A stretch of 64,000 nucleotides of DNA, from the NCBI GenBank assembly GCA_015478725.1, contig JADMIG010000012.1, positions 1 through 64,000 on the forward strand, written 5' to 3'. The notes under the pieces are model-generated. The model saw nothing but the letters and a program-made list of their open reading frames with translations. It did no database searches and was not told the DNA's origin. Shown piece by piece: positions 18,230-26,827 of the stretch (position 1 is its first letter; every line of letters begins with the position of its first letter). The stretch comes from Chloroflexota bacterium (GTDB taxonomy: Bacteria > Chloroflexota > Limnocylindria > Limnocylindrales > CSP1-4). The position numbers and the translations under genes are program-made.

Positions 18230-19168
18230 GTGGCGGCGATCGATCTCGTCAGCCCGTCATCGAGCCTGAGGCGCTCGCTCACCGTGAGCGAGCGCCTCGA
18301 TCCGTCGCGGCGCATCACCCTGCTGGCCGCTGGACTCGTCGTCGTGCTGGTCGGCCTCCTGCTCGCGTTCATCAGCTGGAACGGGATCCAGCTCTTCACC
18401 GCGTCGCACGTCCCGATCGCGGAGGTCCTGTCCGCGACCTGGGCGCCCGATGCCGGCGCCGCCACGTCGTTCGGGATCCTTCCGTTCATCCTCGGCACGA
18501 TCAGCGTGATGGCCGTCGCCGCGATCATCGCCGCGCCGCTGTCCATCGGCCTGGCGATCTTCATGGCGGAGGTCGCGCCGCCATGGGCGCGCGCGATCAC
18601 CCGGCCGGCGATGGAGATCTTCGTCGGGATCCCGAGCGTCGTCTATGGCTGGCTCGGGATCACCATCCTCGTGCCGTTCCTCCGTGAGAACGGGTCCGGC
18701 CTCGGCTTCACGGTCGGGTTCAGCTGGTTCGCGGGGTCCCTCGTTCTCGCACTCATGATCCTGCCGACGATCTCGAGCATCGCCTATGACGCATTGCTCG
18801 CCATCCCGGCCGATCTCCGCTCGGCGTCGCTCGCCCTCGGCACGACCCGCTGGCAGACGATCCTCCACATCCTCCTTCCCGCCGGCGCGACCGCCCTGAC
18901 GACCGCGGTCGTCCTCGGCATGATGCGGGCGGCGGGCGAGGCCCTCGCGGTCCAGATGGTGATCGGCAACCGGCCGGTCATCCCCACGAGCCTCACCCAG
19001 CCCATGACGACACTCACGAGCCAGATCACCCTGGACATGGGCAACACGGTCTCCGGCGAGCCGTGGAACGAGGCGCTGTGGACGATGGGGCTCGTCCTCC
19101 TCGTGATGTCGCTCGGGTTCGTGGCCCTCGTACGCGTCCTCGGTCGGCGGAGGGTGGTCGGGGCATGA
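18230..19168 (+). CDS. pstC: Phosphate ABC transporter permease
   Basis: A 312-aa protein with a GTG start preceded by GGAGG. It has six membrane helices, the first at ~residues 27-48. Conserved permease features include GTISVMAVAAIIAAPLSIGLAIFMAE, EIFVGIPSVVYGWLG, and the cytoplasmic EAA-like loop [27 protein letters not shown] that contacts PstB. It forms the membrane channel with PstA. The last four bases overlap the pstA start (ATGA). Confidence 0.96.
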   Translation: MAAIDLVSPSSSLRRSLTVSERLDPSRRITLLAAGLVVVLVGLLLAFISWNGIQLFTASHVPIAEVLSATWAPDAGAATSFGILPFILGTISVMAVAAIIAAPLSIGLAIFMAEVAPPWARAITRPAMEIFVGIPSVVYGWLGITILVPFLRENGSGLGFTVGFSWFAGSLVLALMILPTISSIAYDALLAIPADLRSASLALGTTRWQTILHILLPAGATALTTAVVLGMMRAAGEALAVQMVIGNRPVIPTSLTQPMTTLTSQITLDMGNTVSGEPWNEALWTMGLVLLVMSLGFVALVRVLGRRRVVGA

Positions 19169-20052
19169 GACGGGCGATCCTCATCGACCGCATGGCGACC
19201 GTCGTACTGTGGGCGATCGCCGGGCTCGTCATCCTCATCCTCGGCGCCATCATCGTCCATTTCCTTCTCGCCGCGGTCGGGACCATCAGCCTCGGCTTCC
19301 TCGTCGGCGATCCGAGCGACACGACCGTCGGCGGGATCGGGCCGATCCTCTGGAACTCGCTCTACATCCTCGTCCTCACCCTCGCCATCACCGTCCCGCT
19401 CGGCATCCTCGGCGGGATCTACCTCGCGGAATACGCCGGCGAGGGCCCCGTGACGACCGCGATCCGTTTCTGCCAGGAGCTCATCAGCTCGGTCCCCTCG
19501 ATCGTCGTCGGGATGTTCGGTCTCGCCCTCTTCGTGGGCGCCACGCACTGGGGCTTCACCGCGCTCAGCGGCTCGCTCGCCCTCACCGTGTTCAACCTGC
19601 CGCTCATGGCGCGCCTCGCCGAGCAGGCGATCCGGGCTGTTCCCGACGATGAGCGACAGGCAAGCCTGGCCCTCGGGACGACCAAGTGGGCGTCCATCCG
19701 CCACGTCGTCCTGCCGCTCGCGATCCCCGGCATCGTCACGGGCATCATCCTCACCGCCGGGCGGATCTTCGGCGAGGCGGCGGCACTCATCTTCACCTCG
19801 GGGCTCTCGACGCCGACGAACTACGACTTCCTCAACCTCAACGTCACCGACCCTCGCTCGCCGTGGAGCCCGTTCCATCCGGCGACGACCCTGTCCGTCT
19901 ACATCTGGAAGCTCAACTCGGAGGGCCTCGGCGCGTTCGTCCGGCAGATCGCCGACACGAGCGCGGCCGTCCTCGTCATCATGGTCCTCGGCTTCAACCT
20001 CGGGGCGCGCGGGCTGGGCCGGGCGCTCCAGCGGCGGATCACCGGCGCATGA
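19165..20052 (+). CDS. pstA: Phosphate ABC transporter permease
   Basis: A 295-aa protein beginning at the ATG overlapping the pstC stop. It shows six helices and the PstA patterns: [30 protein letters not shown], and the EAA loop [31 protein letters not shown]. It ends in an ATGA overlap with pstB, so pstC, pstA and pstB are translationally coupled. A longer open frame upstream is antisense-like and was excluded. Confidence 0.96.
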
Positions 20053-20981
20053 TCCATCCCGAACCGACGCGCGAGGCACGCGGCATGGACGCGATCGAGG
20101 ATCGAGCGGTCGACGATGTCCGCGACCCGAACGAGGGCGACGCCGCGGGGACGCCTCGCGATGCGGAGGCGACCGAGGCGGAGCTCGTGCCCGCGGCGGA
20201 GGTCGTGCCGCCCACGAAGCTCGCCCTCCGCGGTCTCCGCGTGTCATACGGCGGCCGTCTCGCCGTTCGCGACGTCGACCTCCGGATCCCGTCCAACGCG
20301 GTGACCGCATTCATCGGGCCATCCGGCTGTGGGAAGAGCACGGTCCTGCGCTGCTTCAACCGCATGAACGACCTCATCCCGACGGCGCGGGTCGAAGGTC
20401 GCGTCGAGCTCGACGGGGAGGACATCAACGGACCTGACATCATCCCGGTCGAGGTCCGTCGCCGGGTGGGTCTCGTCTTCCAGCGGCCCAACCCGTTCCC
20501 GATGACGATCTACGAGAATGTCGCGTACGGGCCCCGCCGTCACGGCGTCCGTGACCGGGCCCGGCTCGACGAGATCGTCGAGCGGTCGCTGCGGAGAGCG
20601 GCGCTGTGGGACGAGGTCAGGGACGATCACCACCGGAAGTCGGGCCTCGCCCTGTCCGGTGGTCAGCAGCAGCGGCTGTGCATCGCGCGGACGCTGGCGA
20701 TCGATCCGGAGGTCATCCTCATGGACGAGCCGTGCTCGGCCCTCGACCCGATCGCGACGTTGAAGATCGAGGAGCTCATCGCGGAGTTGCGCGATAACTT
20801 CACGATCGTCATCGTTACCCACAACATGCAGCAGGCATCACGGGTGAGCGACCGGACCGCGTTCTTCACGATGGGCGAGGATCGAGCCGGCTACCTCGTG
20901 GAATACGGCCCGACCGCTGCCATGTTCACGAATCCCCGGGAGCGGCTCACCGAGGACTACGTCTCCGGCCGGTTCGGCTGA
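20049..20981 (+). CDS. pstB: Phosphate ABC transporter ATP-binding protein
   Basis: A 310-aa protein. The catalytic part is standard: Walker [10 protein letters not shown], PstB-specific [12 protein letters not shown]-loop FQRPNPFPM, signature [13 protein letters not shown], Walker [17 protein letters not shown], and switch [10 protein letters not shown]. The first ~57 residues form an acidic, low-complexity extension (many Asp, Glu and Ala) absent in most PstB proteins; an internal ATG at 20085 (MDAIED) is an alternative, but the 4-bp overlap with pstA favours 20049. It energises PstCA. Confidence 0.96.
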
Positions 20982-20997
20982 GACGGAGGGAGGGTCG

Positions 20998-21675
20998 ATG
21001 ACGGAGGCGCTCCATCACGCGACGCGCGAGCCGCTCGATCGCGAGCTGCGGGCGATCACCGATTCGATCCTCCGCATGGGGAACCTCGTCGAGGAGGCGA
21101 TCCGGGGCGCGCTCCAGGCGCTGACGGACCACGACGCCGAGCGCGCGCTCGGCGTCATCGTCGGGGACCGGCGGATCAACGAGGCGCAGCGATCCGTCTC
21201 GACACTCATCGCAACGACCATCGCGACACAGGCGCCGGTGGCGCGCGACCTGCGCTTCCTCCTCACCCTCGACCACGTGAGCTACGAGCTCGAGCGGATG
21301 GGCGACCATGCCGCCAGCGTGGCGAAGCAGTCCCGCAAGCTCGCTCCGCAGCCGCCGCTCATGGGCTACGTGGGCCTGCCCGAGATGGCGTCCACCGTGG
21401 CCGGCCTCGTCCACGGCGTCCTTCGCGCCCTCGTCGACGCGGACCAGGAGGCGGCCCGGCTCGTCGCGTCCGGCGACGACGACGTGGACGACCTGTACCA
21501 CCGGACGTTCGACGAGGTCCTCGACCTCATGCGGGCGGATCCGGCCAACGTCGACCGCGGAGCCCGGATCCTCTTCGCCGCCCACTACCTCGAACGGATC
21601 GGCGATCGGGTGACGAACATCGCCGAGGACGTGGTCTTCCTCGCCACCGGCGAGATCGAGGACCTCAATCCCTGA
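20998..21675 (+). CDS. phoU: Phosphate signalling regulator
   Basis: A 225-aa all-helical protein of two PhoU repeats, each with the metal-binding E/D pattern (ERMGDHAASVAKQ in the first, LERIGDRVTNIAEDVVFL in the second). It couples the transport state of PstSCAB to the PhoR kinase and represses the Pho regulon in high phosphate. Its ribosome site GGAGGG stands just before the ATG. It is 16 bp behind pstB, completing pstSCAB-phoU. Confidence 0.96.
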   Translation: MTEALHHATREPLDRELRAITDSILRMGNLVEEAIRGALQALTDHDAERALGVIVGDRRINEAQRSVSTLIATTIATQAPVARDLRFLLTLDHVSYELERMGDHAASVAKQSRKLAPQPPLMGYVGLPEMASTVAGLVHGVLRALVDADQEAARLVASGDDDVDDLYHRTFDEVLDLMRADPANVDRGARILFAAHYLERIGDRVTNIAEDVVFLATGEIEDLNP

Positions 21676-21679
21676 TGCG

Positions 21680-22180
21680 ATGATGGGCGATCGGACGCGA
21701 CGGATCGAACTCCACCTCCTCCGGCACGCCGATGCCGGCGACCCGATGGCGTGGACGAGGCCGGACGCGGAGCGCCCGCTCTCGGCGAAGGGACTCCGCC
21801 AGGCCGACCGGCTCGCGCGCCACCTCGCGGCGCTCGACCTCGAACCGGACGCCATCCTCACGAGCCCCAAGGTCCGCGCCGCGCAGACGGCAGAGGCGGT
21901 GGCCGTCGCCCTCGGCCGGCGCGTGACCGTGGACGAGCGCCTGGCCGGCGATCTCGACCTCGAGACCCTCGAGGCGATCCTCCGCGACGCCGGTGACCTG
22001 CGCCGACCGCTGCTCGTCGGCCACGATCCGGACTTCAGCGAGCTCGTCTCGACGTTGATCGGCGCAGAGCTCACGATGCGCAAGGGCACCCTTGCCCGGA
22101 TCGACCTCGACGGACCCATCGCCCCGGCGGCGGGCGTCCTCCGCTGGCTCCTCCCGCCGGACGCCCTGCCCGGCGGCTGA
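21680..22180 (+). CDS. SixA-type phosphohistidine phosphatase
   Basis: A 166-aa member of the histidine phosphatase (RHG) superfamily. The catalytic histidine motif LLRHADAGD is at residues ~13-21, the second histidine is in VGHDPDFSEL (~113-122), and KVRAAQTAEAVA is the conserved arginine-bearing segment. SixA proteins remove phosphate from phosphohistidine, for example on signalling or PTS proteins. It starts 4 bp after phoU and is probably co-transcribed, which suggests a possible link to histidine phosphorylation in the Pho pathway. ATG at 21680 or the adjacent 21683. Confidence 0.88.
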   Translation: MMGDRTRRIELHLLRHADAGDPMAWTRPDAERPLSAKGLRQADRLARHLAALDLEPDAILTSPKVRAAQTAEAVAVALGRRVTVDERLAGDLDLETLEAILRDAGDLRRPLLVGHDPDFSELVSTLIGAELTMRKGTLARIDLDGPIAPAAGVLRWLLPPDALPGG

Positions 22181-22193
22181 ACGAGAGACCGAG

Positions 22194-23471
22194 ATCAACG
22201 GACCGCTCGCCGCGGCGACCGGCGTCGGGCTCTTCCTCGTCGTCGTCGTCCTCACGATCGCGCGCCCGCGCGGACTCCCCGAATGGGCGAGTGGCGTGGG
22301 CGGGGCCGTCGTCGCGGTCGTCGTCGGCCTCGTCGGGCCGGACGCGGCGGTCGCCGCGGTGGTCGGCGACGCAAACGTACTCGCCTTCTTTGTCGGGATG
22401 ACCGGACTCGCCGCCGTCGCCGAACGGAGCGGCTTCTTCGAGCAGACCGGCGCCCTCGCGGTGCGCTGGTCGGCCGGGAGCGGGCGGCGACTGCTGCTCG
22501 CCGTGCTCTGCCTCGGTGCGGCGATCTCGATGGTCCTCTCGAACGACGCGACCGTCCTCATCCTCACGCCGGTCGTGTACGGGCTCGTCGTCGGCCTCGG
22601 CGTCGACGCCCTCCCGTACGTCCTCGCCTGCACGTTCATCGCCGATGCGGCCTCGCTGCTGCTGCCGGTGAGCAATCCCGTCAACGTCCTCATCCTCGAT
22701 GGCGTCGGCGTCCCGGTCCCGGACTACCTCGCGGCGGTCGGGCCGGCGGCGGTCGTCGCGGTCGCCCTGACGATCGTCGCGCTCATGTGGCTGTTCCGGC
22801 TTCGGGTGCCACGCCGTCTCCGGCACGCGACAGCGAGCTTCGAACGTCGCCCCCTGCCCGCGGTCTGGATCGCCCTCGGCGGGGTCGCCGTCACGTTCGT
22901 CGGCGGGGGCCTCCTCGGCGCTCCGCTCGGCCTCGTCGCCTGCGTCGGCTTCGTCTTCCTCCTCGTCGTGGAGGCGTTGGCAGCGGGCGCGGCGCATCGT
23001 CGACCGCTCGACGGCGTGAGCTGGGCGATCCTCGCCTACGTCGCGGGGATGGTCGTCCTCGTCCGGGCGCTGGAGGACCAGGGAGTCGTCCAGGCGCTCG
23101 TCGGCACGACGCTCTCGGCCGGTCGGGACTCTCCTGCCGTCATCGCCATCCTCTCGACCGCCGTCGCCGCGGTCGGCGCGAACCTCGTGAACAACGTCCC
23201 GATGGCGCTCGTCATGGTGAGCGCCATCGACGGCACCCATCTCGCCGGACCGGTCCGCCAGGCGGCCGCCTTCGGCTCCATCGTCGGCGCCGACCTGGGG
23301 CCGAACCTCACGACGGTCGGCTCCCTCGCCACGGTGCTGTGGCTCCTCATCCTCCGCGACCGGGGGATGGACGTCCGGCCCGCGGACTATCTTCGGGTGG
23401 GGCTGCTCATCACGCCGCCGATCCTCGTCGCCAGCACCGCCGTCCTCGTCGCGACACTGACCGTGAGGTGA
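22194..23471 (+). CDS. ArsB/SLC13-like membrane transporter
   Basis: About 425 aa with ~11 membrane helices. The first is GVGLFLVVVVLTIAR; NVLAFFVGMTGLAAVAERSGFF, AISMVLSNDATVLILTPVV, LPVSNPVNVLIL and GANLVNNVPMALVMV...GADLGPNLTTVGSLATVL are hallmark paired motifs of the ArsB arsenite-efflux/ion-transporter superfamily. Substrate is unproved: arsenite efflux is plausible because an arsenate reductase lies 2.5 kb downstream, but related members move Na+/H+ or dicarboxylates. No ATG, GTG or TTG is found near the first helix in this frame; a TTG at 22092 would add 34 non-conserved residues overlapping sixA, and an ATC at 22194 fits the domain start. The start is therefore uncertain. Confidence 0.8.
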   Translation: MNGPLAAATGVGLFLVVVVLTIARPRGLPEWASGVGGAVVAVVVGLVGPDAAVAAVVGDANVLAFFVGMTGLAAVAERSGFFEQTGALAVRWSAGSGRRLLLAVLCLGAAISMVLSNDATVLILTPVVYGLVVGLGVDALPYVLACTFIADAASLLLPVSNPVNVLILDGVGVPVPDYLAAVGPAAVVAVALTIVALMWLFRLRVPRRLRHATASFERRPLPAVWIALGGVAVTFVGGGLLGAPLGLVACVGFVFLLVVEALAAGAAHRRPLDGVSWAILAYVAGMVVLVRALEDQGVVQALVGTTLSAGRDSPAVIAILSTAVAAVGANLVNNVPMALVMVSAIDGTHLAGPVRQAAAFGSIVGADLGPNLTTVGSLATVLWLLILRDRGMDVRPADYLRVGLLITPPILVASTAVLVATLTVR

Positions 23472-23476
23472 CTGCC

Positions 23477-23935
23477 ATGGAACCGCCGACCGTCCTCGTC
23501 GCCGTCTCGGGTGAGGAGACCGTGGAGTTCTGGACGGAGGTCCGGGCACTCGTGCCCCCGACCGCCGCCATCGAGATGTTCCACGTCATCGATGACGCCG
23601 CGGCCCACCAGATCGGGCTTCGGGCCGCCCATCTGCCAGGCCGCGATCCGGCGCACGGCCTGCCACCCGCGTCCTACGGGGCGGAGCGTCACGGGGCGGA
23701 GGCGCTCGTCGCCGACGCGGTGGCCGCCCTGGGTCGGCCGGCGAGCTCGGCCATCGCCCGTGGGCGGCCGGGTCACACCATCGTGGAGCGGGCCGCAGAG
23801 CGGCGGGCGGACTGCGTCGTCGTCGGCGTCCGTGCGGCCGCGGTGCGGGTCGCGGCGGATCCCCACAGCCTCGGCCATGCGGCGCGCTTCGTCGTCGACC
23901 ACGCGCCGTGTCCGGTTCTCCTGGTGCGGCGGTAG
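23477..23935 (+). CDS. Universal stress protein-like domain protein
   Basis: A 152-aa protein of USP/adenine-nucleotide alpha-hydrolase-like fold: it begins with a beta strand (TVLVAVSGEE), has the mid helix (GAEALVADAVAALG), and ends with a strand-turn motif, RRADCVVVGVRAAA...VDHAPCPVLLVRR. The ATP-binding GxxGxxxxxxxxG(S/T) motif is degraded, so nucleotide binding is doubtful. Six bases after the transporter stop, it is likely coupled to it; USP-like domains commonly accompany transporters of this superfamily. It converges with the phosphodiesterase gene (5-bp gap). Confidence 0.75.
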   Translation: MEPPTVLVAVSGEETVEFWTEVRALVPPTAAIEMFHVIDDAAAHQIGLRAAHLPGRDPAHGLPPASYGAERHGAEALVADAVAALGRPASSAIARGRPGHTIVERAAERRADCVVVGVRAAAVRVAADPHSLGHAARFVVDHAPCPVLLVRR

Positions 23936-25952: not shown

Positions 25953-25983
25953 TTGACCTTCGAGTGACTCGAAGGTGTACGGT
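25953..25983 (+). promoter_or_regulatory. MerR-type promoter-operator: dyad in a 19-bp spacer
   Basis: -35 TTGACC (25953-25958) and -10 TACGGT (25978-25983) are exactly 19 bp apart, the diagnostic MerR-regulated spacing. A perfect dyad fills it: ACCTTCGAGT at 25956-25965 and ACTCGAAGGT at 25967-25976, one base between. The ATG at 25991 lies 7 nt after the -10, so the mRNA start probably coincides with the start codon (leaderless). The dyad also lies only 47 bp from the phoR ATG on the other strand. Confidence 0.85.
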
Positions 25984-25990
25984 TCCGGCG

Positions 25991-26827
25991 ATGAACGTCT
26001 CCGAGCTCGCCCGACGGGCGGGGATCGCGGCGACGGCGATCCGCTGGTACGAATCGTCCGGGATCCTGCCGCCTGCCCGGCGCCGGGCGAACGGCTACCG
26101 CGAGTTCGACGAGGCCGATCTCGACCGTCTCCGGCTCATCGTGAGTCTCCGCGATCTCGGCCTCGGCCCGCGCGAGGCCGCTCGACTCGCCCGTCTCGCC
26201 GCGGAGCGTCCGGCCGGACTCGACCTGGATCTCGCGGCGCTCGTCGCCGCGCAGCGCGCGGCGATCGCCAGACGCCGTGCGGACCTCGATCGCGTCGAGG
26301 GCCAGCTCATCGATCTCGAGCACACGATCGTCGCCGCCGGTCGCGCGGCAGAGGAGGCAGTCCCGATGTCCGACCAGCCCATCCGCGTCCTGTTCGTCTG
26401 CACCGGCAACAGTGCGAGGAGCCAGATCGCCGAGGCATTGCTCGGCCGGATCGGGGGACCGGACTTCGCGGTCTTCTCTGCCGGGACCGAGCCGCGGGTT
26501 GTGAACCCGTATGCGATCCGGGTCCTTGCCGAGTCCGGGATCGACTGGTCGGGCGCGCGGAGCAAGTCCGTCGACGAGTTCCTCGAGGAACGGTTCGACT
26601 ATGTGGTCACCGTCTGCGACCGGGCCCGGGAATCCTGCCCGGTCTTCCCCGGTCGCTACAACGCCCTCCACTGGGGTCTCGACGACCCTGCCGAGGTGGA
26701 CGGCACCGATGCCGAGAGGCTGGCTGCCTTCCGGCGGACGAACCTCGAGCTTGTCGGTCGGATCCGCCCGTTCGTCGAGCTCGCCCGGAGAGCAGCCGGG
26801 AGGTCCGCGGTCGGCGCGATGGCCTGA
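25991..26827 (+). CDS. MerR-family regulator fused in frame to thioredoxin-linked arsenate reductase
   Basis: A 278-aa fusion. Residues 1-70 are a MerR winged helix (ELARRAGIAATAIRWYESSGILPP), 75-120 a dimerising coiled coil (RRRADLDRVEGQLIDLEHTIV). From Met126 it is an arsenate reductase of the low-molecular-weight phosphatase fold: P-loop CTGNSARS with Cys137, and the redox pair Cys209 and Cys216 in VCDRARESCPVFPG. Spacings C-72-C-7-C equal those of S. aureus ArsC (C10, C82, C89), so the triad is complete. An internal start at 26366 (Met126) has its own GAGGAGG 8 nt upstream, so ArsC could also be made separately. The regulator part has no own sensor cysteines. It is divergent from phoR. 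Confidence 0.9.
   Translation: MNVSELARRAGIAATAIRWYESSGILPPARRRANGYREFDEADLDRLRLIVSLRDLGLGPREAARLARLAAERPAGLDLDLAALVAAQRAAIARRRADLDRVEGQLIDLEHTIVAAGRAAEEAVPMSDQPIRVLFVCTGNSARSQIAEALLGRIGGPDFAVFSAGTEPRVVNPYAIRVLAESGIDWSGARSKSVDEFLEERFDYVVTVCDRARESCPVFPGRYNALHWGLDDPAEVDGTDAERLAAFRRTNLELVGRIRPFVELARRAAGRSAVGAMA

Follow-up and report, generated by a model that had tools for sequence, protein, structure and literature searches.

How a gene that joins a MerR-type regulator in frame to an arsenate reductase might work is the question raised by positions 25991-26827 of the window, the whole stretch of 64,000 nucleotides of Chloroflexota DNA that was analyzed. Arsenic genes in bacteria are mostly described as controlled by ArsR-type repressors. 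The best explanation for the locus, and a fairly probable one, is a one-gene, autoregulated, arsenic-induced regulator-enzyme. On this view, arsenic would activate a MerR-type switch whose effector domain is the detoxifying enzyme itself; regulator and enzyme would come in different amounts from one gene, which seems to hold the sensor, the switch and the remedy for arsenate together. Such a gene would offer a compact, testable case of enzyme-as-sensor regulation and possibly a part for an arsenate biosensor. Beyond the original prediction, the analysis found that the gene carries a conserved MerR-type promoter of its own, that a start within the frame is conserved too, and that relatives keep the fusion among arsenic operon genes. 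Like the fusion and its catalytic residues, these features can be read from the sequence, and the model is built on them.

The merR-arsC gene (25991-26827, plus strand) was identified from its frame, Pfam, TIGR02691 and homologues as a single unbroken frame of 278 aa, in which a MerR part (residues 1-121) precedes a thioredoxin-type ArsC. The MerR winged helix-turn-helix (wHTH) domain and a 43-residue coiled-coil helix (residues 79-121) are encoded at 25991-26353 on the plus strand, as indicated by Pfam MerR_1, AlphaFold2 and Foldseek matches to CueR/CadR. MerR_1 covers residues 1-67 (E 5.5e-17) and Pfam MerR residues 3-39, both above cut-off, while LMWPc covers residues 133-237 (E 9.2e-18). 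The thioredoxin-type (pI258) ArsC domain lies at 26387-26764 on the plus strand, where TIGR02691 (thioredoxin ArsC; residues 133-258, E 4.3e-35) was top-scoring among the ArsC models with 120.8 bits, short of the whole-protein cut-off of 174.3 bits; by its residues and fold this half is a divergent pI258-type ArsC and no TIGR02691 equivalog. Its best PDB relative is 8p5n (Deinococcus indicus ArsC2), and B. subtilis 1jl3 is matched as well. In the AlphaFold2 model (mean pLDDT 84, pTM 0.59), a short linker leads from the wHTH and the helix 79-121 to the ArsC fold. The profiles, PDB relatives and model thus bear out the original prediction of a MerR helix-turn-helix and coiled coil joined in one frame to ArsC.

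The only cysteines of the window protein are Cys137 (26399-26401), Cys209 (26615-26617) and Cys216 (26636-26638), all on the plus strand. Their spacings of 72 and 7, as first noticed, were confirmed, and the CX5R P-loop and two resolving cysteines of pI258-type ArsC are present. In fact, C137, R143, C209, C216 and D232 are invariant among 30 aligned fusions, so that the tethered enzyme looks competent rather than a dead sensor domain. The ArsC half resembles those of S. aureus pI258, B. subtilis and D. indicus ArsC2 in fold, CX5R P-loop, Cys triad spacing and DDP loop, but those are free enzymes. Fusions of ArsC with ArsR, ACR3, AqpS and ArsN have been described (PMC6205960, PMC6514093), among them ArsR-ArsC proteins of Leptospirillum, Microbacterium, Sinorhizobium and Actinobacteria (PMC6205960, PMC6514093), in agreement with the earlier statement that ArsR-ArsC fusions are known (PMC6205960). 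Like these, the window protein joins a regulator, in its case a putative arsenic regulator, to ArsC; unlike them, its DNA-binding half is a MerR with a MerR-type activatable promoter instead of an ArsR/SmtB repressor, and an ArsR/SmtB HTH was not found in it, Pfam giving MerR only.

A MerR-type promoter was found at 25953-25983 on the plus strand, composed of a -35 element TTGACC (25953-25958), a 19-bp spacer and a -10 element TACGGT (25978-25983), whose last base lies 7 nt before the fusion ATG. Centred in the spacer region is the perfect palindrome ACCTTCGAGTGACTCGAAGGT, a predicted operator of the 10-1-10 form ACCTTCGAGT-G-ACTCGAAGGT at 25956-25976 (unstranded). MerR-controlled promoters typically have spacers of 19-20 bp that hold a palindrome (PMC9909328), and the locus shows these family traits, with an N-terminal wHTH and coiled coil and a palindrome in an overlong 19-bp spacer. 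A search for a standard sigma-70 promoter with a 16-18 bp spacer found none, as expected with 19 bp. Among relatives the promoter takes the form TTGACC, a 19-bp spacer filled by the palindrome, and TAnnnT. Wherever a homologue has its gene start at this place (29 of 29), TTGAC stands unchanged 37-38 nt before the start codon and the spacer is 19 bp; both operator half-sites are conserved, and across the 29 the information content drops to background just upstream of TTGAC, leaving the flanking DNA unconserved. No clear covariation was seen at palindrome positions 9/17. In the held-out homologues the promoter is kept except in L118 and the degraded copy L139; it is absent at the usual place in L005 and L118 and lies about 100 nt further upstream in L006. 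A strict operator pattern gave 26 matches in 101 genomes against 0 for a reversed-pattern control, every match lying at a fusion gene or, in the window's own genome, at an aquaporin gene. Since this conserved promoter stands at the 5' end of the gene, the fusion regulator most likely controls its own gene, and since it stands so close to the start codon, the mRNA is probably leaderless. In the proposed mechanism, the MerR half of the full-length protein would sit on the palindrome and, when arsenic is present, would untwist the DNA and turn the promoter on; the transcript would begin at or beside the first codon, and leaderless translation would give a little of the full-length MerR-ArsC, the switch.

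The signal would most likely be read by the tethered ArsC, through arsenate in the P-loop or through arsenylated, disulfide or arsenite-bound cysteines. We infer sensing through the ArsC cysteines because the window protein contains no other thiol, its MerR part having no cysteine before residue 137. A more specific and tentative idea is that the regulator, while on the DNA, would follow the catalytic cycle of its own active ArsC, switching when arsenate is bound or turned over there or when the resolving cysteines form their disulfide, and that the same gene also gives the free enzyme; if so, a MerR regulator would sense enzyme flux. Alternatively, the MerR part may sense a signal of its own, which could be a metal or the redox state or, in relatives, arsenite at residue 70, with ArsC as an induced enzyme carried by the fusion. 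In its favor, the MerR half scores best, by fold and profile, against the metal regulators CueR and CadR (Foldseek), and in 28 of 31 homologues the MerR part carries an extra cysteine, aligned at residue 70, so that another sensing site is possible in those relatives. For the window protein, however, this account is rather doubtful, as its MerR part has zero cysteines yet faces the same operator, and scores far below the CueR/CadR/MerR equivalog cut-offs. Unlike the CueR, CadR, MerR and ZntR metal sensors, this MerR part is without metal-binding cysteines.

The regulator-enzyme reading further supposes a second product. An internal Shine-Dalgarno (SD) sequence, AGGAGG, lies at 26352-26357 on the plus strand, 8 nt before an in-frame ATG (26366-26368, plus strand; Met126), which is predicted, on conservation and anti-SD pairing, to start a free ArsC of 153 aa. 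An ATG or GTG occupies this position, exactly before ArsC, in 45 of 46 fusion-derived homologues, and the median anti-SD energy at the internal start is -9.5, compared with -3.1 at 412 other in-frame start codons. In the first homologue set (n=31), every member matches the SD in 4 or more bases and 27 members do so in 5 or more, as against 13% and 3% elsewhere; in 2000 rounds of synonymous recoding, SD counts as high as those observed did not occur. The SD is kept in most homologues though the encoded residues change (KE, EE, RRT), and where the start position is valine the codon is always GTG (11 cases), compared with 34% of valine codons elsewhere. Because the first set consisted of the roughly 30 best-matching homologues, a held-out set was also examined; the start was found in 12 of 13 (Mann-Whitney p 9e-6), a result that is significant but weaker than in the first set, and 4 of the 12 starts match the SD in fewer than 4 bases. 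L118 has neither the internal start nor the promoter at this place. All these homologues are related by descent, and the counts do not equal independent events. From the conserved start and SD, an ArsC-only product besides the full-length protein is inferred: the strong internal ribosome site would give free ArsC, which would reduce arsenate to arsenite with thioredoxin, and the two products would differ in amount.

The frame, open from end to end, would also suit a plain fusion with no separate ArsC, in which the internal start is the relic of a two-gene operon and the enzyme works within the DNA-bound dimer; the weak or missing SD in the 4 held-out homologues fits this, as do L112 and L118, which have no start at the junction. 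Such a relic is nevertheless an unlikely explanation: start codon and SD persist despite changing residues, the choice of GTG stands far from the usage of other valine codons, synonymous recoding leaves the SD unexplained, and L112, without the start, has lost Cys209 as well.

The arrangement favored here, with two products from one gene, has a counterpart in TipA (TipAL/TipAS) of Streptomyces lividans, an autoregulated member of the MerR superfamily in which two alternative start codons in one gene yield the full-length regulator and the effector domain alone (PMC7762955). Both genes combine a MerR wHTH, a coiled coil and an effector domain, and at the sequence level the fusion's own promoter carries a predicted operator, as in TipA-type autoregulators. 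The effector differs, being a drug-binding domain in TipA and here a redox enzyme with intact catalytic residues; the TipAS domain (PF07739) was not found in the fusion, whose domain is LMWPc/ArsC. Compared with TipAS, the second product of the fusion gene is a predicted one. The best reading is that the fusion would work like TipAL/TipAS but is no TipA.

Arsenic is the presumed inducer because of the ArsC domain and the operon partners. In relatives the fusion heads operons, in which the next gene encodes an aquaporin (L003-L008, six loci), ACR3 (L011, L016-L020 and L026; divergent and below the curated cut-off in those of the L016/L018 type) or ArsM (L013 and L029). These three families were confirmed on examples by profile search, including ncbifam; in the remaining loci the following gene is unrelated or without assigned family. 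A SaoE/ArsP-like permease gene was also seen near the fusion in L027, L133, L135, L136, L143 and L144.

In the window's own genome, one more perfect operator besides that of the fusion promoter was found, on the redundant contigs C40 and C42. Behind it come an ATG and a frame of 28 codons whose product aligns with the C-terminal end of the fusion protein (score 85, shuffled maximum 45), and then an aquaporin gene (PF00230, E 1.4e-57). Operator and relic lie on the minus strand at L063:5250-5443, and the aquaporin may start at a TTG overlapping the stop codon of the relic. The two contigs (L063, L064) are identical over 11.9 kb, by redundant assembly or true duplication. Most simply, an operon of the order operator-merR-arsC-aquaporin, a kind still present in L003-L008, would have been stripped here of most of its first gene, and the copy in the window would have been retained. 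ArsC is coupled to arsenite exit through an aquaporin in AqpS of Sinorhizobium meliloti and AqpS-ArsC of Salinispora tropica (PMC6205960), whereas in this family the coupling would occur via a shared operator or an operon under a MerR-type regulator.

Arsenite would then exit via a co-regulated channel or pump: in relatives, the aquaporin or ACR3 downstream of the fusion, and here the aquaporin under the same operator elsewhere in the genome, probably together with the nearby ArsB. This ArsB-type arsenite permease (22092-23471, plus strand; Pfam ArsB E 8.2e-44) ends the pst-phoU cluster and is the probable exporter of arsenite made by ArsC; no ACR3 was found in this genome. In the cluster pstA/B-phoU-sixA-arsB-usp (19063-23935), the arsenite-pump gene is joined to phosphate uptake genes.

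The fusion gene itself stands alone between phoR and proS, so that arsenic induction is argued here from relatives and the aquaporin operator. That cluster, a phoR-like kinase and a phoB-like regulator, all neighbors in the window, could instead point to a phosphate-regulon element answering phosphate, or arsenate as its mimic. This is very improbable, because the neighbors in relatives are aquaporin, ACR3, arsM or unrelated genes and the aquaporin operator of the same genome sits on a different contig.

The arsenic-switch reading presupposes a real fusion. A scan of 107 genomes of the same family of uncultured Chloroflexota gave about 45 full-length fusions, mostly 62-73% identical; of the 27 genera in this family, about half have one. 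None has a stop at the MerR-ArsC junction, which excludes the sequencing error or hidden stop between residues 110 and 126 that had been named as a way in which the fusion could prove false. That an assembly or sequencing artefact fused two genes in this 151-contig draft, where one other contig pair is redundant, can be regarded as already refuted by the copies in separate genomes.

The supposed rarity of the architecture also held. Among the matches listed from a 400-genome phylum sample, no full-length fusion lay outside the family, the outside matches covering mostly the ArsC part, with at least one (L105) preceded by an ArsR-like frame; no match covering 80% of the query was found in 72,556 plasmid records. 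A widespread architecture is supported by neither search. A public-record scan, which reached close relatives only, gave full-length matches solely in Chloroflexi MAGs. A described MerR-ArsC protein was not found in the papers searched, which covered few subscription journals and are weak evidence of absence.

That the fusion arose once, in a single clade, was considered and rejected, since the ArsC tree does not yield one clade. The unfused ArsC of L107, L109 and L116 are nested among fused ones with patchy support, which fits later loss of MerR. L116 has an ArsR frame in place of the MerR HTH; of MerR only the coiled-coil tail remains, followed by the start codon and an intact ArsC. The same kind of MerR tail and ArsC start are kept in L035, where the frame upstream opens like an ArsR gene in its first codons. 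Since both keep the tail and the start without the MerR HTH, ArsC must begin at that start, an indication that the start can function by itself. The two loci also suggest that MerR and ArsR can take each other's place in this role.

L112 (G034; L112:2060-2920) is a divergent MerR-ArsC with Cys209 replaced by Ser and no internal start. Its palindrome differs (TTTGCAG-CCA-CTGCAAG), and its neighbors are HIT-like and permease genes, not arsenic genes. L112 is possibly a sensor-only offshoot, as it would be if the catalytic cycle is what the regulator senses, and it may sense something else. Fused, ArsR-swapped and catalytic-cysteine-lost forms offer a natural series for how regulator-enzyme fusions arise and get replaced. 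L139 (G040:C85) and L115 (G033:C62) are apparently broken fusion copies, with an in-frame stop or with the N-terminal part lost.
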